From the NCBI RefSeq assembly GCF_017161445.1, contig NZ_CP071060.1, positions 992,001-1,056,000 on the forward strand: a stretch of 64,000 nucleotides of DNA, given 5' to 3'. Positions 33,373 through 50,065 of the stretch are shown here, in pieces. Numbering within the stretch: position 1 is the first letter of the stretch; every line of letters starts with the position of its first letter. Origin of the DNA: Niveibacterium microcysteis (GTDB taxonomy: Bacteria; Pseudomonadota; Gammaproteobacteria; Burkholderiales; Rhodocyclaceae). The translations under genes were made by a program, and so were the position numbers. The notes beneath the pieces were generated by a model. The model saw only the letters and a program-made list of their open reading frames with translations, did no database searches and was not told where the DNA came from.

Positions 33373-33378
33373 GTGGTC

Positions 33379-34005
33379 ATGAGCGACCTTCACGCACTTC
33401 CTTCGAAGCCGGAGCGCGAGTACTGCAGCACAAGCGAAGCTGCACAGATGCTCGGCGTCTCCTTGGGTACCGTTCAGCAAATGGTCGAAAACGGCCTGCT
33501 GGAGGCGTGGAAGACGGCGGGCGGTCACCGTCGCATCCGCATCGGTTCGGTTGAAGACTATCTGCGGCGTCGATCTTCAGGCGTCGCGGCACCCCATCCG
33601 GTGGGCGTGTTGCGCATTCTTGTGGCGGAGGATGATCGTATCCTCCAGCGCTTGTATGCCCACACCTTTGAGACCTGGAACCTGCCGATCGAGGTACGCC
33701 TCGTCGAGTCTGGCTTCGATGGTCTCTTGGAAATCGGTCGTCAGCAGCCCGACTTGCTGATTTCCGACCTTGTGATGCCTGGCCTCGACGGGTTCGCGAT
33801 GATTTCTAAGCTGCGCTCGGACCCCAAGCTTGAAGACATGGACATCATCGTGGTGACCGGCCTGTCGCAGGAGGATATCGCCGAGCGTGGCGGATTGCCT
33901 GACGACGTGACGATCTATGGCAAGCCGGTGCCGTTCAAAGAGCTCAAGGGTTATATCCAGGCGCGGCTGGCTCAGTTCCAGCGGCGCGGGCGCGCGGCCA
34001 GCTGA
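33379..34005 (+). CDS. excisionase/MerR-like HTH plus response-regulator receiver protein
   Basis: A 208-residue protein with an unusual domain order: an N-terminal excisionase/MerR-type winged HTH (YCSTSEAAQMLGVSLGTVQ, then WKTAGGHRRI), followed by a CheY-like receiver domain (acidic pocket E84-D85, phosphoacceptor D130 in LLISDLVMPGLDG, conserved Lys in IYGKPVPF). DNA binding and phosphorylation are thus in reverse order compared with OmpR or NarL regulators. No partner histidine kinase is adjacent. GTG 33373 is an alternative start. A perfect inverted repeat ends at the start codon. Confidence 0.85.
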   Translation: MSDLHALPSKPEREYCSTSEAAQMLGVSLGTVQQMVENGLLEAWKTAGGHRRIRIGSVEDYLRRRSSGVAAPHPVGVLRILVAEDDRILQRLYAHTFETWNLPIEVRLVESGFDGLLEIGRQQPDLLISDLVMPGLDGFAMISKLRSDPKLEDMDIIVVTGLSQEDIAERGGLPDDVTIYGKPVPFKELKGYIQARLAQFQRRGRAAS

Positions 34006-37077: not shown

Positions 37078-37911
37078 TCAGCCTGGCGCCGGGCTGAGTG
37101 ATTTGCGGAAGCGGTTGAGGTCCTGCGCGGTCTCGAAGGCCTGGCCAAACAGGCTCGAGAGGTTGCGCAGGATGCCGCCGATGACGCGTTGCTCGCAGTC
37201 CTTGTCGAAGCGGATCTGTTCGGACAGCCAGTGTTCGAGCCATTCCGGATCCGGTAGTCGGGACTGGATCGTGTCGCGCGGGAAGAGCGCTTCGTTCACA
37301 TGCAGATTGGTCGGATGCAGCGGTTTGCCGCTGCGCGCAGAACTGGCCATCAGCACGCCGATCTTCGCAAAGGCGGCGCGAGCGCTGTCGCCAACGCGAT
37401 CGATCGCCTGCTTCATGTACTTCAGGTAGGCGCCGCCGTGCCGCGCTTCATCGCGCGAGAGCAGGTCGTAGATCTTCTTGATCACCGGCTCGGTGTGCCA
37501 TGCCGATGCGCGGCGATACCACTGCGTCAGGCGCAGCTCACCGCAGAAATGCAGCATCAGCGTCTCCAGCGGCGGAGCGGGGTCGAACTCGAAGCGCACC
37601 GCGTGCAGTTCCGGCTCGCTGGGGGCAAGCTCGGGGCGGAAGCGCCGCAGGTATTCCATCAAGACCAGCGCGTGCTTCTGTTCCTCGTAGAACCAGATCG
37701 ACATGAAGGCCGAGAAGTCGGAATCGTCACGGTTGTCGCGCAGGAACATCTCGGTGGCGGGCAGCGCGGACCACTCGGTGATCGCATTCATCTTCACCGT
37801 GAGCGCTTGTTCGTCCGAGAGCAGGCTGCTGTCGAAGCGCTCCCACGGCACGTCTTTAGCCATGTTCCAGCGGGCCGCTTCAAGCGACTGGTAGAGGTCG
37901 GGGTAGAGCAT
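37078..37911 (-). CDS. diiron ferritin-like/acyl-ACP-desaturase-like protein
   Basis: A 277-residue soluble four-helix-bundle protein. All six expected diiron ligands are visible with desaturase/ferritin-like spacing: E46, E77-x2-H80 (FYEEQKH), E125, E155-x2-H158 (RDEARH). Length fits stearoyl-ACP desaturase relatives or ferritin-family oxidases. The ATG follows GGGAGGTATCC. It lies 72 bp behind the B12-photoreceptor-type regulator on the same strand, next to a divergent operon with a fatty-acid methyltransferase, so a role in lipid modification is plausible but not shown. Confidence 0.75.
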   Translation of the reverse strand: MLYPDLYQSLEAARWNMAKDVPWERFDSSLLSDEQALTVKMNAITEWSALPATEMFLRDNRDDSDFSAFMSIWFYEEQKHALVLMEYLRRFRPELAPSEPELHAVRFEFDPAPPLETLMLHFCGELRLTQWYRRASAWHTEPVIKKIYDLLSRDEARHGGAYLKYMKQAIDRVGDSARAAFAKIGVLMASSARSGKPLHPTNLHVNEALFPRDTIQSRLPDPEWLEHWLSEQIRFDKDCEQRVIGGILRNLSSLFGQAFETAQDLNRFRKSLSPAPG

Positions 37912-37983
37912 CGGATACCTCCCGCAACGTCAATCTGCGGGTCTCATTCTAGATCGTGTTCGTGACTTGCCGGTTGCGGGTGC

Positions 37984-38895
37984 CTACGCAGCGTTGGCGG
38001 TACGCCACGCTTCGAGCGCGCTGAGGGTTTCGCGAATGTCCGTGATGATGCTGACACCGGGAATTGCGTCGCGGCGTCCGGCGATCGCCCTGCCGCCGGC
38101 CCATAGCGCGACGCCGTCGGGCAGCGCCGCGCGCAGCTGCGTCAATCCCTCCACCGCCTGACGCGCCGGAAAGGCCGCGGAGAACGACAAGGCCACGATG
38201 TCGAAGTCGCCGGCGCGGGCGGCGCTGTCGATGTTCGCGATCGGCATCTGTGTCCCGAGCGATACGCAACTCGCGCCTTCGCTGACGAGCAGGGCCTCGG
38301 CCATCAGCAGGCCCAGCACATGGAGTTCGTCCGGGAAGGTGGTCAGCAACACACGTGGGCGCTGGCCGCCGCCTTGAGCATTGATTGCGCTGCGTAGCAG
38401 GTTCTGCACCTGCTCGGTGTACAGGTGCTCCTCCGGCACCTGGATCTCGCCGCGTAGCCAGGCATTGCCGATCAGCGTGTTGAGCGGTGCGACGGTTTCC
38501 ACCACAAAGGCCTGCAAGCCCTGCTTGAGCAGGGTCTGCTGCAGGGTGCGCCGCAGCTCCTCACTGCGATGCAGGCGCAGCAACTCGACGATGCTGTTGC
38601 AGCGGCTCGCTGCATTGGGGCAGTCAATCGTCTGCGCTTGCCTGGCTTGCAGCATCTCGCCGAGGGTTTCGATCGAAGCCTCGATCAGTTTGCCCGGCCG
38701 CATGCCTTGGTCCACAAGATGTTTGAGCAGGCGGAGTTTCTCTACCTGGTCGGCCGGGTACAGACGCTCGTCGTGCTCGTCGCGCTCGGGCTGCGGAAAG
38801 CCGTAACGCCGCTCCCACATGCGGAGCGTGTCTTTTGGCAGCCCGGTTTCGCGCTCGACGGCGGCGATCGCAAGTTTGGTTGGGTCCTTCGACAT
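37984..38895 (-). CDS. litR: MerR-family cobalamin-binding transcription regulator (LitR/CarH type)
   Basis: A 303-residue protein. Residues 1-75 form a MerR winged HTH (KLAIAAVERETGLPKDTLRMWERRYG). Residues about 95-175 are the helical B12-cap with W146-x9-E156-H157, the CarH light-sensing signature. The Rossmann B12-binding domain has ExHxxG at E190-G195, with H192 as the expected lower cobalt ligand. In CarH/LitR proteins, AdoB12-bound tetramers repress in the dark and dissociate in light. The ATG at 38895 is preferred because a longer frame to 38958 would read through an operator palindrome. It is divergent from the operon starting at 38991. Confidence 0.9.
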   Translation of the reverse strand: MSKDPTKLAIAAVERETGLPKDTLRMWERRYGFPQPERDEHDERLYPADQVEKLRLLKHLVDQGMRPGKLIEASIETLGEMLQARQAQTIDCPNAASRCNSIVELLRLHRSEELRRTLQQTLLKQGLQAFVVETVAPLNTLIGNAWLRGEIQVPEEHLYTEQVQNLLRSAINAQGGGQRPRVLLTTFPDELHVLGLLMAEALLVSEGASCVSLGTQMPIANIDSAARAGDFDIVALSFSAAFPARQAVEGLTQLRAALPDGVALWAGGRAIAGRRDAIPGVSIITDIRETLSALEAWRTANAA

Positions 38896-38900
38896 TGGTG

Positions 38901-38917
38901 TTTTGTCCTGGACAAAA
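38901..38917. promoter_or_regulatory. operator palindrome 1
   Basis: TTTTGTCC-T-GGACAAAA, a perfect 17-bp palindrome. It lies 5 bp upstream of the litR start codon and 2 bp upstream of the -35 of the divergent operon promoter. MerR proteins bind palindromes as dimers, so this is the likely binding site of the adjacent regulator and would also give autoregulation. Confidence 0.8.
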
Positions 38918-38919
38918 GC

Positions 38920-38948
38920 TTGACTGCGAGAATGCATGTGTCTATCGT
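38920..38948 (+). promoter_or_regulatory. sigma70-like promoter of the divergent operon
   Basis: TTGACT (-35, 38920-38925), 17-bp spacer, TATCGT (-10, 38943-38948). The predicted start near 38955 lies between the two operator palindromes. Confidence 0.6.
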
Positions 38949-38964
38949 ACGAACACAAACCTGA

Positions 38965-38979
38965 TTTGTCCAGGACAAA
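38965..38979. promoter_or_regulatory. operator palindrome 2
   Basis: TTTGTCC-A-GGACAAA, a 15-bp palindrome that repeats operator 1. Its centre is 63 bp from that of operator 1 (six helical turns). It would fall just downstream of the predicted transcription start and just upstream of the ribosome binding site AAAGGAG of the first operon gene. Confidence 0.8.
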
Positions 38980-38990
38980 AGGAGCTCACC

Positions 38991-39212
38991 ATGAAACCCG
39001 CAGCGATTGCTTCAACAAACCGCAAAGTCTTGCTGTTCATGGCGTCGGCCTTGGTGTTGCTCGGCGCTTTGGGGTGGACAATGGCCCACGCCGCCGACGA
39101 GGCATGTCCGGTTGCGGCCGAGATTGAGCATGACCGCTTGCTTATTGTCCTACACAACAATGGTGCTGAGCTGGCGGTTCCGCGTCTGCCGGCGATTGAC
39201 GGGGCGCGCTGA
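38991..39212 (+). CDS. small secreted or membrane-anchored protein, first gene of the light-type operon
   Basis: A 73-residue protein with an N-terminal membrane/signal segment (KVLLFMASALVLLGALGW, possible cleavage after AHA) and a short mature part with one cysteine (DEACPVAAEIEHDRL). It follows AAAAGGAGCTCACC, a good ribosome binding site. I do not recognise a family. Its gene is the first behind the divergent promoter and stops 3 bp before the glutathione peroxidase gene, so it is co-expressed with it. Confidence 0.6.
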   Translation: MKPAAIASTNRKVLLFMASALVLLGALGWTMAHAADEACPVAAEIEHDRLLIVLHNNGAELAVPRLPAIDGAR

Positions 39213-39215
39213 GCG

Positions 39216-39782
39216 ATGGGGCTGCTGATGAATCGCTTTCGCTTCCAAGTGCTTGCGCTGCTGTTGATGTTGCCGGGCATCGCGAGTGCGGCAGCGACGT
39301 GTTCCCCGCTGCTCGATCACCGCTTCAAGCGCTTGTCCGGTAGCGAGACGTTTTCGATGTGCGACTACGCCGGCAAGGTGCTGTTGGTGGTGAATACCGC
39401 CAGCTTCTGCGGCAACACGCCGCAGTACGAAGGCCTCGAGCGGCTCTACCAGAAGTACTCCGGCCGCGGACTGGTCGTAGTCGGCTTCCCGTCGAACGAC
39501 TTTGGCCAGCAGGAGCCGGGCAGCGAGAAGGAGATCGCCGAGTTTTGCAAGATGACCTACGGTGTGAAGTTCCCGATGGCGGCGAAGACCTCAGTGGTCG
39601 GTGCCGCGGCGCATCCGTTTTACCGCCAGCTCGCCAAGTCGACAGGCGCAGCGCCCTCTTGGAACTTTCACAAGTACCTGATTGATCGCAGCGGCAATCG
39701 CGTTGTGAGTTTTGACAGCGGCATGCAGCCGGAAAGCCCGGCGATCGTGGCGAAGATCGAATCGCTGCTCGCTGCGCCCTGA
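39216..39782 (+). CDS. periplasmic glutathione peroxidase family protein
   Basis: A 188-residue thioredoxin-fold peroxidase with a signal peptide (RFQVLALLLMLPGIASA). The peroxidatic residue is C65 in NTASFCG (codon TGC, so not selenocysteine); the conserved Gln lies in PSNDFGQQEPG and the Trp/Asn in SWNFHKY. It reduces hydroperoxides, including lipid peroxides, in the periplasm. Its place in an operon with a fatty-acid methyltransferase and a light-sensor regulator fits protection against photo-oxidative lipid damage. Confidence 0.88.
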   Translation: MGLLMNRFRFQVLALLLMLPGIASAAATCSPLLDHRFKRLSGSETFSMCDYAGKVLLVVNTASFCGNTPQYEGLERLYQKYSGRGLVVVGFPSNDFGQQEPGSEKEIAEFCKMTYGVKFPMAAKTSVVGAAAHPFYRQLAKSTGAAPSWNFHKYLIDRSGNRVVSFDSGMQPESPAIVAKIESLLAAP

Positions 39783-39816
39783 GTGGGCGCGACATTTCAG
39801 ACGAGAGGGACTCGCG

Positions 39817-41154
39817 ATGCACATGCATGAATTCAACGCGCGCTCATTGGCGCAAGGGCCACGCCAGCGCATTGCCGTTGTCGGCTCGGGGATCGCTGGC
39901 TTGGGTGCGGCGTGGCTGCTGCGCGAGCAGCACGATGTGGTGGTGTTTGAGGCGGCCCAGCGGCTGGGCGGGCACACCAACACGGTGGATGTCACGCTGG
40001 AAGGTGTTACGCATGGGGTGGATACCGGCTTCCTGGTATTCAACCGCCGCACCTACCCGAACCTCTGCGCGCTGTTCGCGGCGCTTGATGTACCGGTGGT
40101 CAACAGCGACATGAGCTTTGCGGTGAGCGTTGCCGAGCCCGATATCGAGTGGGCGGGCAGCAGCCTCGCCACGGTTTTCGCGCAGAAACGCAACCTAGCC
40201 CGGCCGGCCTTCTGGCGCATGCTGCAGGACATCGTGCGCTTCAATCGCGAAACGACCCGCGAGGCGCGCGAGCACGCACTGCCGCCGATATCGCTGGGCG
40301 ACTACCTCGATCGCAACGGCTATGGCGTCGAGTTCCGCGACTGGTATCTGGTACCGATGGCGGCGGCGATCTGGTCCTGCCCGCCGCGTACGATGCTTGA
40401 ATACCCGGTCGCAACCTTCCTGCAGTTCTGCCACAACCACGGGCTGCTGCAGGTGAGCGATCGGCCGCAATGGATGACGGTGAAGGGCGGCGCACGCGAG
40501 TACGTACGCCGCATCGCCGCGCAGTTGCCGGAGATCCGCCTGGGCTGCCCGGTGGGCGGTGTGCGGCGTGAGGCCGGCAAGGTGGAGCTGCTCACCGCGG
40601 GCGGCGCGGAAGTCTTCGATCAGGTGATCTTTGCCTGTCATTCCGATCAGACCCTGGCCATCCTTGGCAGTGCGGCCACGCCGCTGGAGCGCGCGGTGCT
40701 CGGGGCGGTGCGCTATCAGCCCAATCGCGCCCTACTGCACACCGACCCGGCGCTGCTGCCGCGCCGGCGTTCAACCTGGAGCGCGTGGAACTACGCCGCC
40801 AGCGCGGGCGCGTCCGCCGACCGTTCGGTCGCGGTGTCCTACCTGATCAACCAGCTCCAGCCCTTGCCATGGAAGACGCCGGTGGTGGTGTCGCTGAACC
40901 CCTTCCGCGAGCCGTCGCCGTCGCATCTGATTGCAGAAATCGACTATGCCCATCCGGTGTTCGACGCGGCCGCCGTTGCTGCGCAAGCGCATCTGCCGAT
41001 GCTGCAGGGGCGCAATCACACCTGGTTCTGCGGTGCCTGGACCGGTTATGGCTTCCATGAGGACGGCCTGAAGTCGGCGGTGGACGTGTGCAGCGTGCTG
41101 GGTGCGGTCGCGCCGTGGAAGGCCGAGCCAGTGCGCGTCGAGGCGCGTGCATGA
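39817..41154 (+). CDS. FAD-dependent oxidoreductase, COG2907/amine-oxidase-like
   Basis: A 445-residue flavoprotein with a Rossmann FAD-binding motif (IAVVGSGIAGLGAAWLL), the RLGGHTNTVDV segment after the second strand, and a C-terminal FAD-binding region (FCGAWTGYGFHEDG). The ATG at 39817 is preferred over upstream in-frame starts inside the peroxidase gene. Homologous families occur beside Cfa-like methyltransferases in singlet-oxygen or light-induced operons, for example in Rhodobacter sphaeroides, where such genes are linked to furan fatty acid formation. Substrate here is an inference. It overlaps the DUF1365 gene (ATGA). Confidence 0.85.
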   Translation: MHMHEFNARSLAQGPRQRIAVVGSGIAGLGAAWLLREQHDVVVFEAAQRLGGHTNTVDVTLEGVTHGVDTGFLVFNRRTYPNLCALFAALDVPVVNSDMSFAVSVAEPDIEWAGSSLATVFAQKRNLARPAFWRMLQDIVRFNRETTREAREHALPPISLGDYLDRNGYGVEFRDWYLVPMAAAIWSCPPRTMLEYPVATFLQFCHNHGLLQVSDRPQWMTVKGGAREYVRRIAAQLPEIRLGCPVGGVRREAGKVELLTAGGAEVFDQVIFACHSDQTLAILGSAATPLERAVLGAVRYQPNRALLHTDPALLPRRRSTWSAWNYAASAGASADRSVAVSYLINQLQPLPWKTPVVVSLNPFREPSPSHLIAEIDYAHPVFDAAAVAAQAHLPMLQGRNHTWFCGAWTGYGFHEDGLKSAVDVCSVLGAVAPWKAEPVRVEARA

Positions 41155-41924
41155 GAGCGGACACCGCTCCGCGGCTGTGCCTGGGGGGCGTGATGCACGC
41201 TCGCCATTGGCCGGTCATGCACCGCTTTGCCTATCCGCTGGCCTGGGTGCGCCTGCCGCTTTCGCGTCTGCACGAGGCGGGCAACGTGCTATTTGGCGTC
41301 GAGCGTGCTCGCCTGTTCTCGTTCCGTTATCGTGATCATGGTGCGCGCGACGGCAGCCCGCTGCTGCCCTGGATTCGCGCGCTGCTGGCTCAGCATGGGT
41401 TGGCCGAGGCCTGTAACGGCGAAGTCGTGCTGCAGACCTTTCCGCGCCTGATGGGCTTTGTCTTCAACCCGGTCAGCTTCTGGTTCTGCCATGACCGGGC
41501 GGGGGTGTTGCGCGCGGTGCTGTGCGAGGTGAACAACACCTTCGGCGAGCGTCACAACTACCTGGTCGCGCATCCGGACGCGCGCCCGATCGTGAGTGGC
41601 GACAGCTTCCGCTCGAGCAAGGTCTTTCATGTATCGCCGTTCTTCCCGGTGCGCGGGGAGTACCGATTCCGATTCGCCGAGCGCGGTAGCGTCGCGAGTG
41701 TGGCGATCGATCTTTTCGACGCTGGCCGCCATCAGCTGACGACCCGCATGTCAGGCCGCGCCGAGGCGTTGTCGGCGCCGGGACTGATGCGCGTGGCCCT
41801 GCGTTTTCCGTTCATGACGCTGGGCGTGGTCGCCCGTATCCATTGGCAGGCGCTGAAGCTGTTCCTCAAGCGCGTGCCCTTTCACCGCAAACCCGTTCCG
41901 CCTCTCAAGGAGACGACATCATGA
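41151..41924 (+). CDS. DUF1365 family protein
   Basis: A 257-residue protein with the DUF1365 pattern: GGVMHARHWPVMHRFAYPL at the start, RLMGFVFNPVSFWFCHD, EVNNTFGERHNY, KVFHVSPFFPV and a C-terminal hydrophobic IHWQALKLFLK. Function unknown, but the family is nearly always found between COG2907 oxidoreductases and Cfa-like methyltransferases, as here. Both ends overlap neighbours by the ATGA arrangement. Confidence 0.88.
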   Translation: MRADTAPRLCLGGVMHARHWPVMHRFAYPLAWVRLPLSRLHEAGNVLFGVERARLFSFRYRDHGARDGSPLLPWIRALLAQHGLAEACNGEVVLQTFPRLMGFVFNPVSFWFCHDRAGVLRAVLCEVNNTFGERHNYLVAHPDARPIVSGDSFRSSKVFHVSPFFPVRGEYRFRFAERGSVASVAIDLFDAGRHQLTTRMSGRAEALSAPGLMRVALRFPFMTLGVVARIHWQALKLFLKRVPFHRKPVPPLKETTS

Positions 41925-43135
41925 GCGCGATCGAAAATACGCTCGCTTCCCGCATCGACCTGTTGCCGGGCGCCGCGAACGCGGTGCTGAAGATGCTCGG
42001 CGCGATGCGTGGCGGCAGCCTGGACATCACCCTGCCGAACTCCGAGCGGGTGAACGTGGGCGAAGGCCACCGCGTTGCGAGCCTGGAGATTCGTGATTGG
42101 GGCGTGTTCGAGACGCTGATCAGCAAGGGCTCGATCGGCTTTGCGGAAGACTTCGTCAACGGGCTCTGGCGCACCGACAACCTCGCCGCGCTGCTCACGC
42201 TCTCGGCGCAGAACCGCGATGCGATGAGCCGTGCGATTCATGGCAACGCGCTGCGTTTGCTCGGCTACAAGATCTGGCATTCGCTGCGTGCAAACACCCG
42301 CAAGGGCGCGCGCCGCAACATCGAGGCGCACTACGATCTGGGTAACGATTTCTACCAGCTCTGGCTGGACGAAACGATGACCTACTCCAGCGCGCTATTC
42401 GCCGAGCCGCACCAGCCGTTGGCCGAAGCTCAGCGCGCCAAGTACCGCCGGATTCTCGAACAGCTCGGCGCCAAGCCCGGCCAGCGCATCCTCGAAGTGG
42501 GCTGTGGCTGGGGTGGCTTTGCCGAGATCGCGACGCTCGAATATGGCTGCGAGGTATTGGGGCTCACGCTGTCACCGGCCCAGCTCAAGTTCGCGCGCGA
42601 ACGGGCCGAACGCGGCGGCTTTGGCGAACTCGCCGCGTTTGAGTTGTGTGACTACCGCGACGTGCGCGGCCACTACGACCATATCGTATCGATCGAGATG
42701 TATGAGGCGGTGGGTGAACGCTTCTGGCCGTCTTACTTCCAGCAACTGCGCGACCGCGTAGCGCCCGGCGGGCGGGTCGTGATCCAGGCGATCACGATCG
42801 AGGATTCGTTGTTCGGCTTCTACCGCAAGAACCCGGACTTCATTCAGCGCTACATCTTCCCGGGCGGAATGCTCGCGTCGCCGGAGCGTATCCGCAAGCA
42901 GGCGGCCAAGGCGGGGCTCGAGGTGGTGGACGACCTCGCGTTCGGGCTTGACTACGCGCGCACGCTGGCAATCTGGCATGAGCGTTTCAACGCGGTGCGC
43001 GAACAGGTTGCGGCGCAGGGCTTCGACGAGCGCTTCATGCGCCTGTGGCAGTTCTACCTCGCCTACTGCGAGGCGGGCTTCCGCGCGGGCTCCACCGATG
43101 TGCACCACTACACCTTCGCCGCCGCACCGGCCTGA
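41921..43135 (+). CDS. cfa: cyclopropane-fatty-acyl-phospholipid synthase-like SAM methyltransferase
   Basis: A 404-residue SAM-dependent methyltransferase of the mycolic acid/cyclopropane synthase family: SAM motif LEVGCGWGGFAE near residue 190, YDLGNDFYQLWLDETMTYS, EMYEAVGERFW and IFPGGMLAS. Acts on double bonds of membrane phospholipid acyl chains, giving cyclopropane or methyl-branched chains. In its operon with a flavin oxidoreductase it could make methylated or furan fatty acids rather than plain cyclopropanes. AAGGAGACGACATC precedes the ATG, which overlaps the DUF1365 stop. Confidence 0.9.
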   Translation: MSAIENTLASRIDLLPGAANAVLKMLGAMRGGSLDITLPNSERVNVGEGHRVASLEIRDWGVFETLISKGSIGFAEDFVNGLWRTDNLAALLTLSAQNRDAMSRAIHGNALRLLGYKIWHSLRANTRKGARRNIEAHYDLGNDFYQLWLDETMTYSSALFAEPHQPLAEAQRAKYRRILEQLGAKPGQRILEVGCGWGGFAEIATLEYGCEVLGLTLSPAQLKFARERAERGGFGELAAFELCDYRDVRGHYDHIVSIEMYEAVGERFWPSYFQQLRDRVAPGGRVVIQAITIEDSLFGFYRKNPDFIQRYIFPGGMLASPERIRKQAAKAGLEVVDDLAFGLDYARTLAIWHERFNAVREQVAAQGFDERFMRLWQFYLAYCEAGFRAGSTDVHHYTFAAAPA

Positions 43136-43142
43136 GCGGATC

Positions 43143-43685
43143 ATGCGCGCCATCCGCTGCTTCCTGATCCTGCTGGCTGTGAGCCTGGGCTTGCCGCTCG
43201 CGGCCAACGAAGGCGCGCGCGCCTTGCCCGAGGCGCTGCGCAGCCAGACGAGCGAGTGGCGGCCGCTTGGCGCCGGAGAGATGACCTGGTTCGGCCTGCG
43301 CCTGTACGACGCGCAGTTATGGACGGCGGGGCCCAGCTTCCGAGGCGCCTCGCCTTACGCGCTGGCGCTGACCTACGCGCGCGATTTCTCGGCCGAACGC
43401 CTGGTTGATACCAGCGTGGAAGAAATGCGCCGACTGGGCATGCGTGACGAAGCGACGTTGGAGCGCTGGCGTGCCGAACTGGCGCGCGTGTTTCCCGATG
43501 TGCGCAAGGGCGATGTGATCGTGGGCGTGCACTGGCCCGATCGCGGCGCGGCCTTCTACCACCGCGGCCAGCTTACCGGCGAGGTGCGCGATCCGGCCTT
43601 TGCGCGGGCGTTCTTCGGCATCTGGCTTGACCCGCGCACCCGCGCGCCGGAGTTGCGCTCCCGCTTGCTTGGCAGCGCGTTATGA
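43143..43685 (+). CDS. chalcone-isomerase-like periplasmic protein
   Basis: A 180-residue protein with a signal peptide (FLILLAVSLGLPLAA) and the bacterial chalcone-isomerase-like fold pattern (MTWFGLRLYDAQLW, YARDFSAERL, VGVHWPDRGAAFYH, ARAFFGIWLDPRT). Members of this fold bind fatty acids or related ligands; catalytic function in bacteria is mostly unknown. It lies 7 bp after the Cfa-like gene and overlaps the carrier gene by 4 bp. Confidence 0.8.
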   Translation: MRAIRCFLILLAVSLGLPLAANEGARALPEALRSQTSEWRPLGAGEMTWFGLRLYDAQLWTAGPSFRGASPYALALTYARDFSAERLVDTSVEEMRRLGMRDEATLERWRAELARVFPDVRKGDVIVGVHWPDRGAAFYHRGQLTGEVRDPAFARAFFGIWLDPRTRAPELRSRLLGSAL

Positions 43686-44974
43686 CGCTTGGCATCGCGC
43701 GCGTTGCGGCAGGCGCGCCGGCGTCGCTCGCACGTCTGTTGGCGTACGGCGCGCTGGCGGTGCCACTCGCCTTCGCGGCATTGCCGATGTATGTGCATGT
43801 GCCGAAGCTCTACGCGGACACGCTTGGCCTGTCGCTCGGTGCGGTCGGGGCGGTGCTGCTGGCGGCGCGGCTGGGCGATGCGGTGGCAGATCCGCTGCTG
43901 GGGCTTTGGAGCGATCGCCTGCAGGCGCGGCGCAGGCTCACCTTGCTGGCGCTGCCGGTGCTGGCGCTGGGCATGGTCGGCTTGCTGCGACCGCCTTCAG
44001 GGGCAGGGCTGACCTGGCTCGCCGCGATGCTCGTGGTGGCGTATGCCGGCTACTCACTGGCCAGCGTGAACTACGCGGCCTGGGGGGCAGAGGCTGGCTG
44101 CGATGCCGGCGAGCGCACGCGCTTGACTGCTGCGCGCGAAGGCTGTGCGCTGCTGGGCGTGGTGCTGGCGTCGGCGCTGCCCGAACTGCTTGCGCCAGAT
44201 CAGGCGCAGGGGCTCGTGCGGCTGCTGTGGGTGTTCATTCCGCTGCTTGGCCTGGCCGCGTTGCTCAGCGCACGCTTCGCACCCTTGCCGCGCGCGCAGC
44301 TGCATGCGCCCGGCACCGTCGGCCGCTTTGAGCAGGCGATTGCGCCGTTGCGGGACCGACCGGTGCGCGCTCTGATGGCGATCTTCGCCCTCAACGGTAT
44401 CGCGGCGGCAATTCCGGCAACGCTGTTCCTGTTCTTTGTGGCGGACGTGCTGGCGCGCGAGCGCTTGTCGGGGCTGTTCCTCGCCACCTACTTTGTCAGC
44501 GGCGCGCTGATCCTGCCGTTCTGGGTCCGCCTCGCTACGCGCATCGGCAAGGTGCCAGCCTGGTTTGCGTCAATGTTGCTCGCGGTACTGGCGTTCGGCT
44601 GGGCGGTGACGCTGGGTGAGGGCGATGTGATCGCCTTCCTCGTGATCTGCGTGATGTCCGGCATCGCGCTGGGTGCGGACATCACGTTTCCGCCCGCGCT
44701 GCTGGCCGATCTGCTGGCACGCCCGGCGCGCGCCGCGGCGGGTGGCATCTACTTCGGCTGGTGGAACCTCGTCACCAAACTCAATCTCGCGCTCGCTGCG
44801 GGCGTCGCGCTGCCCTTGCTCGATTGGCTTGGTTACCGCCCGGGCGCACGCGACGCGGGTGCCTTGCTCGCGCTGGCCGCGGTGTATGCCGTGTTGCCGA
44901 TCGCGCTGAAATGCGCCGCCGCTGCGCTCTTGTGGCGGCTTCGAAAGCATGTGGAACCTGAAGGAGCTTCCTGA
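43682..44974 (+). CDS. MFS transporter, GPH (MFS_2) type
   Basis: A 430-residue membrane protein with 12 predicted helices and the sodium/sugar (GPH) symporter motif after the second helix (DAVADPLLGLWSDRLQARRR) and NYAAWGAEAG. Family members carry sugars or, as in MFSD2-type relatives, lysolipids. In this operon a lipid-related substrate is possible but unproven. The start overlaps the previous stop by 4 bp. Confidence 0.85.
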   Translation: MTLGIARVAAGAPASLARLLAYGALAVPLAFAALPMYVHVPKLYADTLGLSLGAVGAVLLAARLGDAVADPLLGLWSDRLQARRRLTLLALPVLALGMVGLLRPPSGAGLTWLAAMLVVAYAGYSLASVNYAAWGAEAGCDAGERTRLTAAREGCALLGVVLASALPELLAPDQAQGLVRLLWVFIPLLGLAALLSARFAPLPRAQLHAPGTVGRFEQAIAPLRDRPVRALMAIFALNGIAAAIPATLFLFFVADVLARERLSGLFLATYFVSGALILPFWVRLATRIGKVPAWFASMLLAVLAFGWAVTLGEGDVIAFLVICVMSGIALGADITFPPALLADLLARPARAAAGGIYFGWWNLVTKLNLALAAGVALPLLDWLGYRPGARDAGALLALAAVYAVLPIALKCAAAALLWRLRKHVEPEGAS

Positions 44975-45498
44975 TGAAGACTTGGCTGATCGCGGCCATG
45001 ACGGCGCTGGTGCTTGGCGGCTGTTCCAGCGTCGATATCGCGGACTACCGCAACGAGAAACCGCAGCTCGATCTGGCGCACTACTTCGACGGTACCGTCG
45101 ACGCGTGGGGTGTGTTTCAGGACCGTTCCGGCAAGGTGGCGAAGCGCTTTAAGGTGACGATAGCCGCGCAGTGGCGCGGCGAGGTCGGTACGCTCGACGA
45201 ACACTTCGAATACTCGGATGGCAGCACGCAACGCCGCGTGTGGACCGTGACAAAGCTGGCGGACGGCCGATACACTGGCCGTGCTGACGATGTGGTGGGT
45301 GAGGCGATCGGTGAGGCGCAGGGCAACGCCCTTCGCTGGCGCTATACGATGGCCTTGCCGGTGGATGGCAGCGTCTATCACGTCGCCTTCGACGACTGGA
45401 TGTTCCTGATGGATGACAAGACGATGCTGAACCGGTCCTTCATGACCAAGTTTGGTGTCGAGCTCGGGCAGGTGACGCTGAGCTTTCGCAAGCGTTAG
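44974..45498 (+). CDS. DUF3833 lipoprotein
   Basis: A 174-residue predicted lipoprotein: signal peptide with lipobox LGGC (C17), then the DUF3833 pattern (HYFDGTVDAWGVFQDRSG, FKVTIAAQW, HFEYSDG, DDWMFLMDDKTMLNRSFMTKFG). Lipocalin-like beta-barrel family of unknown function often found in this same operon type. The ATG overlaps the MFS gene stop by one base (TGATG). Confidence 0.88.
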   Translation: MKTWLIAAMTALVLGGCSSVDIADYRNEKPQLDLAHYFDGTVDAWGVFQDRSGKVAKRFKVTIAAQWRGEVGTLDEHFEYSDGSTQRRVWTVTKLADGRYTGRADDVVGEAIGEAQGNALRWRYTMALPVDGSVYHVAFDDWMFLMDDKTMLNRSFMTKFGVELGQVTLSFRKR

Positions 45499-45507
45499 CA
45501 GGTACAC

Positions 45508-46281
45508 ATGGCGATGAATCAGCCGATTCGTGACTGGCGCGGCAAGCGTGTGTGGATCGTCGGTGCTTCGACGGGAATCGGCGCAGCCCTAGCGGAATCG
45601 CTTGCGGAGCAGGGCGCTCATCTTGCGCTGTCGGCCCGGCGCGCGGAGCGTTTGCGCGTCTTCGCCGCTCGTTTCCCCGGCAGCATCGCGATACCACTCG
45701 ATGTGGCCGAACATGCCACCTTGCTGCCCGCGGTGTTGCAGCTGCTCGACCTGTGGGGTGGCATCGACGTGGTCGTCTTCAATGCCGGCACCTACACGCC
45801 GATGCATGCGTGGGACCTCACCGTCGAAGGCGCACGCACGACGATCGAGATCAACCTTATGGGCGTCATCAACGGCGTTGCGGCCATCGCGCCGCAACTG
45901 CTGCAACAGGGCGAAGGCGCCATCGTGATTGTTGGCAGTGTCGCCGGCTACCGCGGCTTGCCCAAGGCGCTGGCCTACGGGGCATCGAAGGCCGGCGTGA
46001 TCAACTTCGCCGAGTCGCTCTACATGGACCTCGCGCCGCGCGGCGTGAGCGTCTTTCTGGTGAACCCGGGATTCGTCGAAACACCGCTCACCGCGCAGAA
46101 CAAGTTCCGCATGCCGGCACTGATCACTGCGGCCGAGGCGGCCGATGCGATCCTTCGCGGCATCGCCCGCGGCCGCTTCGAGATTCACTTCCCGCGCAGG
46201 TTCACCCTGCTGCTCAAGTTCCTGCGCTTGCTCCCTGAATGGCTCTACCTGCGTGCGGTGCGGCGCGCGACTGGCGCATGA
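45508..46281 (+). CDS. short-chain dehydrogenase/reductase
   Basis: A 257-residue classical SDR: NAD(P)-binding VGASTGIGAALAE, NAG motif in VFNAGTYTP, catalytic S in VGSVAGYRG and YxxxK in YGASKAG, plus a C-terminal hydrophobic RFTLLLKFLRLLPEWLYL that may associate with membrane. Reduces or oxidises a carbonyl/hydroxyl of an unknown, possibly lipid, substrate. It follows the DUF3833 gene after 9 bp and overlaps the NTF2-like gene (ATGA). Confidence 0.9.
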   Translation: MAMNQPIRDWRGKRVWIVGASTGIGAALAESLAEQGAHLALSARRAERLRVFAARFPGSIAIPLDVAEHATLLPAVLQLLDLWGGIDVVVFNAGTYTPMHAWDLTVEGARTTIEINLMGVINGVAAIAPQLLQQGEGAIVIVGSVAGYRGLPKALAYGASKAGVINFAESLYMDLAPRGVSVFLVNPGFVETPLTAQNKFRMPALITAAEAADAILRGIARGRFEIHFPRRFTLLLKFLRLLPEWLYLRAVRRATGA

Positions 46282-46715
46282 GCACCCAGTCAGCGCTCGA
46301 CGCGCTGGTTGATGCCTACGAGAGGCTGACGCTGGACAGCGTGGACGCGCTCGCCGCGCGCTATGCCACGGAAGCGAGCTTCAAGGACCCGTTCAACGAG
46401 GTGGTCGGACGCGCGGCAATTGCCCGCGTGTTCCGGCACATGTTCGAGCAGGTGGATGTGCCGCGGTTCATCGTGACGGGAAGATTCCCGGCGGAGGGCG
46501 CGGCGATGCTGACTTGGGAGTTCCACCTGCGCTTCCGCGGCGAGTCCGCGGAGCGCGTGATTCGCGGTGCGAGCCACCTGTGCTTCGATGCGCAGGGGCT
46601 GGTCACGATGCACCGCGACTACTGGGATGCGGCTGAGGAGTTGTATGCCCAGCTGCCGGTGCTGGGCGCCTTGATGCGTTTTCTGCGGCGCCGGCTGGCG
46701 ACGCCGCAGGCCTGA
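46278..46715 (+). CDS. NTF2-like (SnoaL-type) protein
   Basis: A 145-residue protein with the NTF2/SnoaL cone fold pattern (ALDALVDAYERLTLDSVDALAARYATEASFKDPFNEVVGR, FRHMFEQVDVP, WEFHLRF, VTMHRDYWDAAEELY). Such proteins act as small isomerases, hydrolases or binding proteins. It is the last gene of the operon and converges on the formate channel gene with only 4 bp between stop codons and no terminator between. Confidence 0.8.
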   Translation: MSTQSALDALVDAYERLTLDSVDALAARYATEASFKDPFNEVVGRAAIARVFRHMFEQVDVPRFIVTGRFPAEGAAMLTWEFHLRFRGESAERVIRGASHLCFDAQGLVTMHRDYWDAAEELYAQLPVLGALMRFLRRRLATPQA

Positions 46716-46719
46716 TGCC

Positions 46720-47553
46720 TCAGTGCGCGGCGGCCTTCGGGGCCTTGCGCGGCGGGGGCAGTTCGCGCGCGGCTTCGGCGGCTTCCGCCTGATCCATCGC
46801 TTCGGGGCTGAGGTAGCGGTAAGCCAGGCCGACGAACACCGCGCCACCCACCACGTTGCCGAGTGTGCTGAAGATCAGGTTGTATACCGCTTGCCCGAAG
46901 GTCAGCCCGCCGTGGCTCAGCAGCGCCATCGAGAAAGTGCCCATGTTGGCGATCGAGTGCTCGAAGCCGAGGTAGAGGAAGATGAACACGACGAGGATCA
47001 TCGCCACGATCTTCGCGAGGTCTTCCTTCAACTGTAGTGCGACCCACACCGCGAGGCAGACCACCCAGTTCGCGAGGATGCCCTTGAAGAAGATCACTTG
47101 CGCAGCCTGCTCGGCCTTGTGTACCGCGCCCTGGTTCAGCGCATGTTCCGGTGGCAGCGAGTCGAGCACGCCTGCGAAATAGAGCAGCGCCGTGAGCACC
47201 ACGGCCCCGATCAGGTTGCCCAGGTAGCAGACCACCCACAGGGCGACCGTCTGCGGCCAGCTCGTCTTCCCTTCGGCTGACGACACCGCGAGGTACATGT
47301 TGTTGCTGGTGAACAGCTCGGAGTTGGTGAACACGATCACCGACAGGCCGACGCCGAAGAAGAGGCTCGCCAGCACCTTGCCGAACGGCGTGTCGTGCAG
47401 GTTGTTGAGCAGCGACCAATACACCAGTACGACGATGGACAGGTACATGCCTGCCAGCACCGCGCGCATCAGGTAGCGGCCCGGGTCTTCCTTCAGCAGC
47501 GAGAATTTGCGCAATCCGCTGGCTGCGGACTTCTCGACGATCGGACGTTCCAT
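46720..47553 (-). CDS. focA: formate/nitrite transporter family channel, probably formate channel
   Basis: A 277-residue inner-membrane protein with six helices and FNT-family motifs (GVGLSVIVFTNSELFTSNN in the Omega-loop region, FKGILANWVVCLAVW, LGFEHSIANMGTFSMAL). FNT pentamers pass formate, nitrite or hydrosulfide; the position behind a formate-hydrogenlyase-type hydrogenase cluster, as focB behind E. coli hyf, argues for formate. Transcribed separately from hycI, given the 324-bp gap. Confidence 0.9.
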   Translation of the reverse strand: MERPIVEKSAASGLRKFSLLKEDPGRYLMRAVLAGMYLSIVVLVYWSLLNNLHDTPFGKVLASLFFGVGLSVIVFTNSELFTSNNMYLAVSSAEGKTSWPQTVALWVVCYLGNLIGAVVLTALLYFAGVLDSLPPEHALNQGAVHKAEQAAQVIFFKGILANWVVCLAVWVALQLKEDLAKIVAMILVVFIFLYLGFEHSIANMGTFSMALLSHGGLTFGQAVYNLIFSTLGNVVGGAVFVGLAYRYLSPEAMDQAEAAEAARELPPPRKAPKAAAH

Positions 47554-47877
47554 TTCGCTTGATTCCTTGGTTTTGTCGTCAGGGGAATGACACCGCGTGC
47601 GTTGTCATCGCAAGCAGTTTCCTTGCACTTTATGTGTCCGACTTGCTCGCGTTTGCGCTGAGTTCAGCGTTTTTGACATCCATCAGGCGTAGGGCGCGGA
47701 TCTAAAAATCGCTCTATGGGTCGATAAGCGGCGCTGTGTTCCGCTTGGGCCCACGTTGAGGTTTAGCGCGCAAATCCGCAATCCGCCACGGTGATTGGCG
47801 GTAAGCGCGAGGGCAGGCGGCCGCTGGCGCGTCGCATGGCGCGCGCGCGGGCGGTCAGGCGACGGGCCGGAGGAGGC
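47554..47877 (-). promoter_or_regulatory. leader/promoter region of focA with FNR-like site
   Basis: This 324-bp gap lies between hycI and focA, both on the minus strand. It has an 8-of-10 match to an FNR box, TTGAC-ATCC-ATCAG at 47673-47686, about 120 bp upstream of the focA start, and a possible minus-strand -10 (CATAAA, 47629-47634). A small CGCTGA-gt-TCAGCG palindrome lies next to the FNR-like site. No other gene is visible. Confidence 0.4.
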
Positions 47878-48333
47878 TCAGAGCCAGGGCAGGGCGGTGA
47901 GGTCTGCGCCGGCGACAAGCTGCGCGTGCAGCGTGGTGACGGCGTTGCGCACCGGTTCGGTCATCGGGAAACCGAAGGCGACGATGTCGGGCTGGATGCC
48001 AACGAAGAGCACCTGCGGCACCGTTTCGCGCAGCCGCTCGATCAGGAAGCTGAGCGGCAGGTTGTGCGTGGTCATGATGAACATGTCGGCGATGTTCGCA
48101 TCGTCGACCAGGCGCACCTCGCCGGGGGCGAGCGCCATGTCCGCCGCGTCCACGATCACGACGGTCTGCGGCGCGAGCGCCTGCACCTGATGTGCGACGT
48201 TCTCCGGCGCGGAGCCGCCGTCGATCGCCGCCCAGCCGCTGGCGGGCGCGTTCGTGAGCAGTTCGGCCAGCAGCGGGCCGACGCCGTCGTCGCCCATCAT
48301 GCTGTTGCCGACGGTGAGGATCAGGTCAGGCAT
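47878..48333 (-). CDS. hycI: hydrogenase 3/4 maturation endopeptidase
   Basis: A 151-residue nickel-dependent protease that removes the C-terminal extension of the hydrogenase large subunit after nickel insertion. It reads like E. coli HycI along its length: VGNSMMGDDGVGPLLAEL, IDGGSAPEN, IVDAADMALAPGEVR, MTTHNLPLSFL, GIQPDIVAFGFPM. The metal-binding Asp residues of the family are present. It overlaps hyfJ by 8 bp, so it is part of the hyf operon; in E. coli hycI belongs to the hyc operon instead. Confidence 0.95.
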   Translation of the reverse strand: MPDLILTVGNSMMGDDGVGPLLAELLTNAPASGWAAIDGGSAPENVAHQVQALAPQTVVIVDAADMALAPGEVRLVDDANIADMFIMTTHNLPLSFLIERLRETVPQVLFVGIQPDIVAFGFPMTEPVRNAVTTLHAQLVAGADLTALPWL

Positions 48334-48733
48334 CGCGGTGCTTCGCGATCAGGTAGATCGCAGGTTCGGCTTCGATATCGGCAAGCGACTGGATCAGCCG
48401 CGTCGCCCACTGGTTCTCGGTTTCGCTGTAGCCCGGGCGGGCGCCGTCCAGCGCCCTGGCGAGCAAGTGCGTAGCCGTGCTGTCGATGTTGATCTCGCCC
48501 CATTTGAGCAAGCCTTCGAGTTTGCTGCGGGCGGCGCCCTCCGGCAGCTTCGCGAGCCAGGCGGCGTAGTCGTCGGCCGGGCATTCGAGGATCGGCTTGA
48601 GGCAGTCGATCACGCCGATATGGTGCCCGATCGCGAGCGAGTAGTAGACCACCTGCTTCGCCTCGGCCGGCATGTCCTCCTTGCGGTCGAGGAACTTCTG
48701 GCCGAGCTGGTAGAAGATGACCTTGCCGCTCAC
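48326..48733 (-). CDS. hyfJ: formate hydrogenlyase maturation protein HycH/HyfJ
   Basis: A 135-residue protein that aligns by eye with E. coli Hyc[17 protein letters not shown] block (here [20 protein letters not shown]), a central KYGEI-like KWGEINID, and the C-terminal PAIYLIAK. Required for conversion of the large-subunit precursor in the Hyc system. It overlaps hyfI by 4 bp and hycI by 8 bp. Confidence 0.93.
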
Positions 48734-49527
48734 GCGGTCGCTCCGCCGATTCCGAGGCAGGTGCTTTGCAGATGGGCAAAGATCTCCGACAGACGCGGGT
48801 CGTCTTTCTCCGCGAGGTGTTCACGCGCACGGGCGACGAACCCTTCCGGCGTCGGCGCAGCGACCATCAGGCCCATGAAGTCATCCGCGATGCGTCCGCC
48901 GTGCAGGTAGCCCGCCATGCGGCGCGCCTCGCGTTCGATCAGCACCCGCAGATCCAGCGGTACGTCCGGGTGCCGCACCTGCGCGACTTCGCCCTCGGCT
49001 TCCTGATGGTGGCTGCCCTTGAGCTTCTGGTTGAGCAGCCCGAGCGCGACCGCGAAGCCGTAGATCGTCGCAGCCGGGGTCGGCGGGCAGCCGGGGATGA
49101 ACACGTCGACCGGGACGATCTGGTCAGTGCCGCCCCAGACGCAGTACAGGTCGTGGAAGATGCCGCCGCTGCAGCCGCAGGCGCCGTAGGAGACGACGAT
49201 CTTCGGATCGGGCGCGGCGCGGTAGGCGCGGATCGCTGGCATCCGCATCGAGCGGGTGACTGCGCCGGTGAACAGCAGGATGTCGGCATGGCGCGGCGAG
49301 GCGACGACCTTGATGCCGAAGCGCTCAGCATCGAAGACCGGCGTGATCGCCGAGAAGATCTCGATCTCGCAGCCGTTGCAACCGCCGCAGTCGACGCGAT
49401 AGACGTAGGCGGAACGCTTGATGTCGCCGAGCAGCGTCTGCTTCAACTGCGCGATGTGCTCGCTCTCGCTGATCGGAGTCGGCATGCCCTGCGCGTTGCG
49501 GGGCGCGAATTCGATGGGCTTGTTCAT
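48730..49527 (-). CDS. hyfI: hydrogenase-4 small subunit (NuoB-like)
   Basis: A 265-residue subunit carrying the proximal [4Fe-4S] cluster: [13 protein letters not shown] (C47, C50, C53), [13 protein letters not shown] and FIPGCPPTP. It passes electrons between HyfH-type ferredoxin and the NiFe large subunit in the peripheral arm. It is one base downstream of hyfH. Confidence 0.94.
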
Positions 49528-49528
49528 C

Positions 49529-50065
49529 TCAGCCTCGCTTCACGAAGGTTTCCGGCTCGACGCTGCACAGCGCCTGTTTGCGCTTGCAGTCGGGGCAGGT
49601 CTCGAACTGCGGGCGCATCGCTTCGGCTTCGGCCTCGGAGAGCCCGCTGTGCACCATCAGCGCCATCGTGAACTCGATCTCCTTGCTCGGCGCGAAGGGC
49701 GTGTCGCAGGCGACGCAGCGGGTCAGCGAAAACGTTGCCCGTTGCATCAGGTCTTCCTTGCGGCCCACCGCCAGCTCGAAGTCGGGCGACAGCGCGATCG
49801 CGCGGGTCGGGCAGACTTCCTCGCAGCGGCCGCAGAAGATGCAGCGCCCCAGGTTGAGCTGCCAGGTGCGCTCGCCGCGCTCGGTGTTGGTGTGCATCGT
49901 CAGCGCATTGGGCGGGCAGGCCACCACGCAGGCCGCGCAGGCGATGCACTGCTCGGCGGTGAACTCGGGCTTTCCGCGAAAGCCCGGACTGACCGGCATC
50001 GGTGCGAACGGGTACTTTTCAGTCGCCTCGCCCGCCTTGCGGATGATTTTGAGCAGCTTGAACAT
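49529..50065 (-). CDS. hyfH: hydrogenase-4 ferredoxin-like subunit (NuoI-like)
   Basis: A 178-residue iron-sulfur protein with two [4Fe-4S] motifs (C40-C43-C46-C50 and C75-C78-C81-C85). Two further CxxC pairs (C117/C120 and C157/C160) may bind metal, as in the HycF C-terminus. It links the small subunits electrically in the FHL peripheral arm. Confidence 0.93.

Follow-up and report, generated by a model that had tools for sequence, protein, structure and literature searches.

The 64,000-nucleotide stretch analysed here (the window, to which all coordinates refer) is part of the 4.85-Mb, two-contig genome of Niveibacterium microcysteis (assembly GCF_017161445.1, contig NZ_CP071060.1, positions 992,001 to 1,056,000). 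It carries litR (37984..38895, minus strand), a gene for a MerR-family regulator of the LitR/CarH family, and, divergent from it, a ten-gene operon with a candidate pathway for furan fatty acids. We propose that LitR is an adenosylcobalamin (AdoCbl)-dependent dark repressor of this furan fatty acid synthesis operon, and give this reading as a whole a probability of about 0.65. Our best reading is also that such control is common in betaproteobacteria. The genus-named closest relatives at the litR locus are an uncultured Uliginosibacterium metagenome-assembled genome and Niveibacterium.

The mechanism that we envisage is as follows. In the dark, LitR would repress both its own gene and the divergent operon. 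Oligomers of the AdoCbl-bound protein on two operators 63 nt apart would straddle the back-to-back promoters and exclude RNA polymerase. Light would cleave the Co-C bond, the oligomer would dissociate and both transcripts could begin. UfaM would then methylate a cis-vaccenoyl phospholipid, UfaD would desaturate it and UfaO would insert the oxygen, giving a furan fatty acid to scavenge membrane oxidants while a glutathione peroxidase removes peroxides. A form of membrane defence for which singlet oxygen is the cue in other bacteria may here be triggered directly by light.

Paired operators between litR and the lipid operon

A stretch of 95 nt (38896-38990) separates litR from the operon. In it, two copies of the palindrome TTTGTCCwGGACAAAAG lie 63 nt apart and flank the divergent promoters. 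These copies are absent from the initial annotation of the region. Copy 1 (TGTTTTGTCCTGGACAAAAG, 38899..38918) adjoins the start of litR and abuts the -35 element of the predicted operon promoter; copy 2 (TGATTTGTCCAGGACAAAAG, 38962..38981) adjoins the first operon gene and holds the -35 element of the predicted litR promoter. Both promoters are consensus matches of the sigma70 type (TTGACT-N17-TATCGT, 38920..38948, plus strand, shuffle mean 0.0; TGGACA-N17-TACGAT, 38944..38972, minus strand) and lie back to back, between and within the operator copies. The half-site TGGACA agrees with the TnnACA core reported for the half-sites of the CarH direct repeat (PMC8156234). In the whole genome the exact sequence TTTGTCCNGGACAAA occurs only at these two places, and one additional place is found with two mismatches. 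Two photolyase genes elsewhere in the genome were considered as LitR targets and rejected, since no TTTGTCCNGGACAAA place within two mismatches lies near them.

Close relatives were sampled as the best 78 of 573 loci encoding a LitR relative (lengths 3.2 to 20.9 kb). All but one of these have TGTCnnnGACA in the 350 nt before litR (77 loci, 141 sites in all), where the density in the remainder of the same loci (33 sites in 1.295 Mb) predicts 0.70 sites. At L076, the exception, the site in that place differs by one base, and an exact one lies at -427. With these counts and exact copies unique in the genome, the possibility of a chance repeat was set aside. The spacing of the operator pair is 63 nt in 32 pairs, 62 in 4, 64 in 5 and 58 to 85 in 10, and 29 of 41 alignable loci have an additional GTC half-site, 11 nt before the copy on the litR side. 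A first set of 29 relatives included 17 with a site within 300 nt (shuffle mean 0.15, maximum 2). Five loci (L085, L106, L107, L108, L111) have a TTGTCCAGGACAC site inside the litR coding sequence, at nearly the same position (about +386 to +389).

The initial annotation had suggested a check for co-occurrence of operon and litR in related genomes. Among the close loci, 61 extend for 8 kb or more on the divergent side of litR; in 56 of them the genes for UfaD, UfaO and UfaM are divergent from litR, which bears out the association. Two of the other five (L041, L070) have ufa genes on the litR strand and three (L057, L074, L081) have no ufa genes. Three Thauera loci (L041, L053, L070) have detached operons, with the lipid genes on the litR strand, 3.0 to 3.9 kb away from start to start, and closely preceded by an operator pair of their own (61 or 63 nt apart), in addition to a site at litR. 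At L070, folE2 is the first gene after the second pair, followed by ufaD. Because the detached operons carry their own pair, the operator is most simply read as belonging to the lipid operon and not to litR alone. LitR is highly likely to bind both operators in the window and to control both transcripts, and this control would be repression.

More distant relatives were taken from an order-wide draw of 300 genomes, 102 of which have a LitR match at E<=1e-20. Forty of these LitR loci were picked. The full ufa core is present in the stretch in 26, the strict motif upstream of litR in 22 (0.26 sites expected) and both in 17. In 5 of the 26 core-bearing loci (L156, L160, L167, L170, L171) litR has the orientation of the operon and lies after its last gene. 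Upstream of ufaD, none of these five has a site of the TGTCnnnGACA type and all five have TGTACA elements (a bare count), as in Pseudomonas. The operator seems to have drifted between the two forms.

Several observations weigh against so close a tie between operator, regulator and lipid genes. At L041 and L070 the second operator pair sits between the lipid operon and a Na/Pi-cotransporter gene on the opposite strand, so it could serve that gene too. The full ufa core is missing from the stretch in 14 of the 40 distant loci, and the ufa operon from three of the four betaproteobacterial plasmid LitR loci examined (Eleftheria, Comamonas, Caballeronia); only that of Azoarcus KH32C has it. With up to two mismatches, a reversed control pattern is found at 7 places in the Niveibacterium genome and the operator at 3. 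The exact operator occurs at 14 places in the 300-genome draw, 6 of them within 150 nt upstream of litR. The 12 genomes concerned comprise 8 with and 4 without LitR, and the reversed control is found in 7 genomes. The exact operator was therefore rejected, as too weak, as a genome-wide marker of LitR.

The regulator

LitR is a protein of 303 amino acids (aa) with MerR_1 at its N-terminus (50.3 bits, cut-off 21.6) and a B12-binding_2 domain (PF02607, 26.6 bits, cut-off 23). Residues 9-252 align with Thermus thermophilus CarH (TtCarH; E=1.5e-25), and the alignment covers both B12-binding regions. The TtCarH residues named as key for AdoCbl, W131, E141, H142 and H177 (PMC11796333, the source of the TtCarH numbering), correspond to W146, E156, H157 and H192 of LitR. 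The initial annotation had described a MerR regulator with the LitR/CarH signature, W146-x9-E156-H157 and E190xHxxG. This description was correct: W146, E156, H157, E190, H192 and G195 are all invariant in a 12-sequence alignment. The motifs Wx9EH and ExHxxG are said to define CarH homologs (PMC8156234). They are kept in 40 of 40 distant relatives and, in the longer form GxxWx9EH with ExHxxG, in 78 of 78 close ones. In addition, [LV]GxxxP is found in 77 of the 78, the remaining one having IGxxxP. By its two motifs the regulator is classed as a B12-binding protein of the LitR/CarH family, from which we infer B12 binding and a response to light. A supply of AdoCbl is plausible, since the genome encodes a PduO-type cobalamin adenosyltransferase and two cobalamin riboswitches.

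Some features count against a light sensor of the CarH type. The second cobalamin domain (PF02310, B12-binding) scores 28.1 bits (E=2e-6), below its cut-off of 32.1. TtCarH H132, the second axial ligand after illumination (PMC11796333), is replaced by Leu in LitR and is His in none of the 78 relatives. In the GxxH light signature, LitR has Asp in place of the Gly, which only 10 of the 78 retain. The light-responsive cobalamin domain of SignatureFinder calls for GxxW, EH, GxxH and GxxxP together (PMC11796333); LitR has three of the four elements, with DELH in place of GxxH. Finally, the NCBIfam equivalog for CarH (NF052513) gives LitR 116.8 bits against a cut-off of 400. Because the two motifs are kept but the NF052513 score is below 400 and Asp replaces the GxxH Gly, we file the protein as a B12-binding member of the LitR/CarH family and not as CarH itself. 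Nor does it resemble class II LitR, defined by a 4-helix region only, with no B12-binding domain, and by TGTACA operators: its second B12 region aligns with CarH and its operator is TTTGTCCwGGACAAA.

The lipid operon

The ten genes divergent from litR, all on the plus strand, are present in the order given by the initial annotation, as judged with Pfam. The first encodes a small protein of 73 aa (38991..39212) with a signal-peptide-like start and no Pfam family; a similar protein occurs in 3 of the 78 close loci (L034, L035, L036). It is followed by genes for a glutathione peroxidase with a signal-peptide-like start (GSHPx, 39216..39782), a UfaD-like oxidoreductase dependent on flavin adenine dinucleotide (FAD) (Amino_oxidase, 39817..41154), a UfaO-like DUF1365 protein (266.7 bits, 41151..41924) and a UfaM-like methyltransferase of the CMAS family (41921..43135). 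The remaining five encode a chalcone-isomerase-like protein (Chalcone_3, 43143..43685), a GPH/MFS_2-type carrier (MFS_2, 43682..44974), a DUF3833 protein with a lipobox-like cysteine (44974..45498), a short-chain dehydrogenase (SDR; adh_short, 45508..46281) and an NTF2/SnoaL-like protein (SnoaL_2, 46278..46715). ATGA overlaps had been noted at most junctions. With the likeliest starts these are found at four of the nine (FAD/DUF1365, DUF1365/CMAS, chalcone/MFS and SDR/NTF2), and a fifth junction is an overlap of 1 nt. The other four are gaps, of 3, 34, 7 and 9 nt.

In Rhodobacter sphaeroides, UfaM, UfaD and UfaO jointly convert cis-vaccenate to the furan fatty acid 9M5-FuFA, UfaO being a DUF1365 protein (PMC7380195). 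A Halomonas UfaM, whose gene adjoins ufaD and ufaO, yielded 11-methyloctadec-12-enoate in Escherichia coli (PMC12089945). The FAD oxidoreductase, DUF1365 and Cfa-like proteins of the window correspond to UfaD, UfaO and UfaM; UfaD is the presumed counterpart of RSP1091 by operon position and family. The genome has no other DUF1365 gene. It has two CMAS matches, the ufaM-like gene over the full length and another in part (35.9 bits).

The UfaM-like protein was aligned to three solved Cfa proteins. Gln replaces the His of their LHT/IHG motif, EAVG stands in place of EHVG, and Ser is found for the Cys of YSC. The Gln occupies a position that we take to be that of His266 in E. coli Cfa, a residue presumably involved with bicarbonate. 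Our set of 67 UfaM-type proteins comprises the window protein and those of 61 loci and of five plasmid operons, with UfaM of R. sphaeroides and of Halomonas outside it. All 67 have Gln and Ala at the two Cfa His positions; at the Cys position, 40 have Ser, 25 have Ala and 2 have Cys. This pattern disfavours an ordinary cyclopropane synthase. Two other CMAS proteins encoded beside ufa operons retain both His. These UfaM-specific residues support the earlier identification of the operon as a furan fatty acid gene set, and its genes very probably make a furan fatty acid. The further claim that the operon 'makes and places' a modified fatty acid exceeds the evidence: in R. sphaeroides, single deletion of RSP1087, RSP1088 or RSP1089 left the fatty acid profile unchanged (PMC7380195), and none of the present findings demonstrates transport.

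As a separate observation, on plasmids of Burkholderia anthina (L120) and Rhizobium tropici (L123) a second methyltransferase, with DUF1295 and with the Cfa His residues retained, is encoded beside the ufa operon.

Alternative explanations, known systems and neighbouring genes

It is improbable that the operon makes some other lipid, for example a cyclopropane or a methyl-branched acid lacking the furan ring. The Cfa-like protein still belongs to the CMAS family, the Halomonas ufaM strain had cyclic fatty acids as well (PMC12089945), and UfaD and UfaO are assigned by family and operon position. Against this stand the complete UfaD-UfaO-UfaM set in one operon, the Gln and Ala substitutions in all 67 proteins, and the presence of this core operon next to ChrR/sigma genes in alphaproteobacteria, the group in which the pathway was elucidated. 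ChrR/sigma control of the core in other taxa could also mean that the palindromes serve only the autoregulation of litR, with the lipid operon under an oxidative-stress sigma factor as in alphaproteobacteria. This is very hard to reconcile with the separate operator pair of the detached Thauera operons and with the sigma70-type promoter before the operon. Moreover, ChrR gave no match in the 78 LitR loci, where the positive control worked, and none over the family cut-off in the Niveibacterium genome (best match 34.9 bits, against 124.5). The operator footprint, the Thauera operons and the lack of ChrR in LitR loci all agree with the earlier proposal that the operon is wired to a B12-type LitR in place of ChrR/sigmaE.

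It is less improbable, though still unlikely, that LitR controls the operon but is not the photosensor itself. It would then act without a B12 chromophore, like Myxococcus xanthus CarA or Pseudomonas class II LitR, or be a reporter of cobalamin status, and the signal would be a partner protein or an oxidant. Precedents are the class II LitR of Pseudomonas, which a LOV protein switches without any need for B12 (PMC9758184), and the MerR-like regulator of Vibrio cholerae, which is thought to act through reactive oxygen species and shares the blue-light response with ChrR (PMC5241685). The loss of the GxxH Gly and of His132 and the missed CarH equivalog cut-off point the same way. On the other side, counterparts of all four TtCarH AdoCbl residues are present, the motifs persist in every close and distant relative, and CtMerR, with Arg at the bis-His position, remains light-responsive (PMC11796333). 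We consider AdoCbl together with light the probable signal for LitR. A broader proposal is about as likely as not: that in many betaproteobacteria an AdoCbl photosensor occupies the position of ChrR/sigmaE elsewhere, as the switch for making furan fatty acids, and arms the membrane on light, before singlet oxygen appears, by a photochemistry that lacks the bis-His end state of TtCarH.

LitR-family control of ufaM is already known from Pseudomonas putida and P. mendocina. There, class II LitR (PplR/PmlR), without binding B12, represses phrB, ufaM and their neighbours until a LOV protein relieves it (PMC9758184). Both systems have a LitR-family regulator (a repressor in Pseudomonas) and ufaM, FAD oxidoreductase and SDR genes, which are light-induced in Pseudomonas. 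The Pseudomonas regulon also has a photolyase and folE, as do relatives of the window locus (folE2 between glutathione peroxidase and ufaD in 12 of the 40 distant loci, a photolyase-related gene after litR in 6), whereas the window locus itself has neither. The Pseudomonas protein has an incomplete B12-binding region, whereas the window LitR aligns with CarH over both B12 regions and has the AdoCbl residues. The operators also differ: TGTACA-N12-TGTACA in Pseudomonas and TTTGTCCwGGACAAA, paired at 63 nt, here. Because this control by a B12-less LitR has been published, the window system departs less from known ones than the initial annotation supposed.

The B12-type CarH/LitR proteins of Thermus, Bacillus megaterium and Myxococcus share with the window LitR the MerR helix-turn-helix, Wx9EH, ExHxxG and operator half-sites with a TnnACA core overlapping the promoter; their two B12 domains have counterparts in it by alignment, with PF02310 under its cut-off. 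Their output is carotenoid synthesis, whereas the window LitR faces furan fatty acid genes, has neither the bis-His residue nor the GxxH Gly, and has palindromic operator copies instead of tandem repeats alone (PMC8156234, PMC11796333). In the accessible literature, B12-type LitR is known for carotenoid control, and ufaM is a known LitR target only for the B12-less class. Our search found nothing tying a B12-binding LitR to furan fatty acids; it covered the J. Bacteriol. articles of Sumi (2018, 2020) only via citing work, so that absence from print is not established.

The ChrR/sigmaE regulon of R. sphaeroides shares the UfaD, UfaO and UfaM pathway (PMC7380195), and the Shewanella RpoE2-ChrR regulon, mostly a promoter prediction, shares a periplasmic glutathione peroxidase, a photolyase and a cfa gene (PMC4336711). 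In these the signal is oxidative and passes through an anti-sigma factor, whereas the window has a putative direct light sensor. The regulatory genes beside the ufa core differ: the anti-sigma factor ChrR is encoded there in Azospirillum thermophilum, Rhizobium tropici and Pseudoalteromonas, a sigma/anti-sigma pair of another kind in Paracoccus and Burkholderia anthina, and LitR in Azoarcus KH32C. If our reading is correct, one lipid pathway is attached to regulators of three kinds (ChrR/sigma, LOV-linked class II LitR and B12-type LitR), and B12 photoreceptors control furan fatty acids of phospholipids as well as carotenoids. The proposal is directly testable by means of the operator sequence and the marker residues of UfaM, and in relatives that can be cultured (Niveibacterium, Zoogloea, Azoarcus).

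A gene for a ferritin-like/FA_desaturase_2-like protein (37078..37911, minus strand) lies 72 nt downstream of litR and is possibly the second gene of the litR transcript. It is outside the conserved core. The protein is common in betaproteobacteria, with more than 80% identity across many of them, and its gene is present in 10 of the 78 close LitR loci and in 11 of the 40 distant ones; it was therefore set aside as a core lipid enzyme. Convergent with the lipid operon is a formate-hydrogenlyase-like cluster (46720-50065) encoding a formate/nitrite transporter, the hydrogenase maturation protease HycI, HycH, a hydrogenase-type Oxidored_q6 protein and 4Fe-4S proteins. At 33373-34005, an HTH_17/MerR-like DNA-binding domain is fused to a response-regulator receiver domain, an unusual order.

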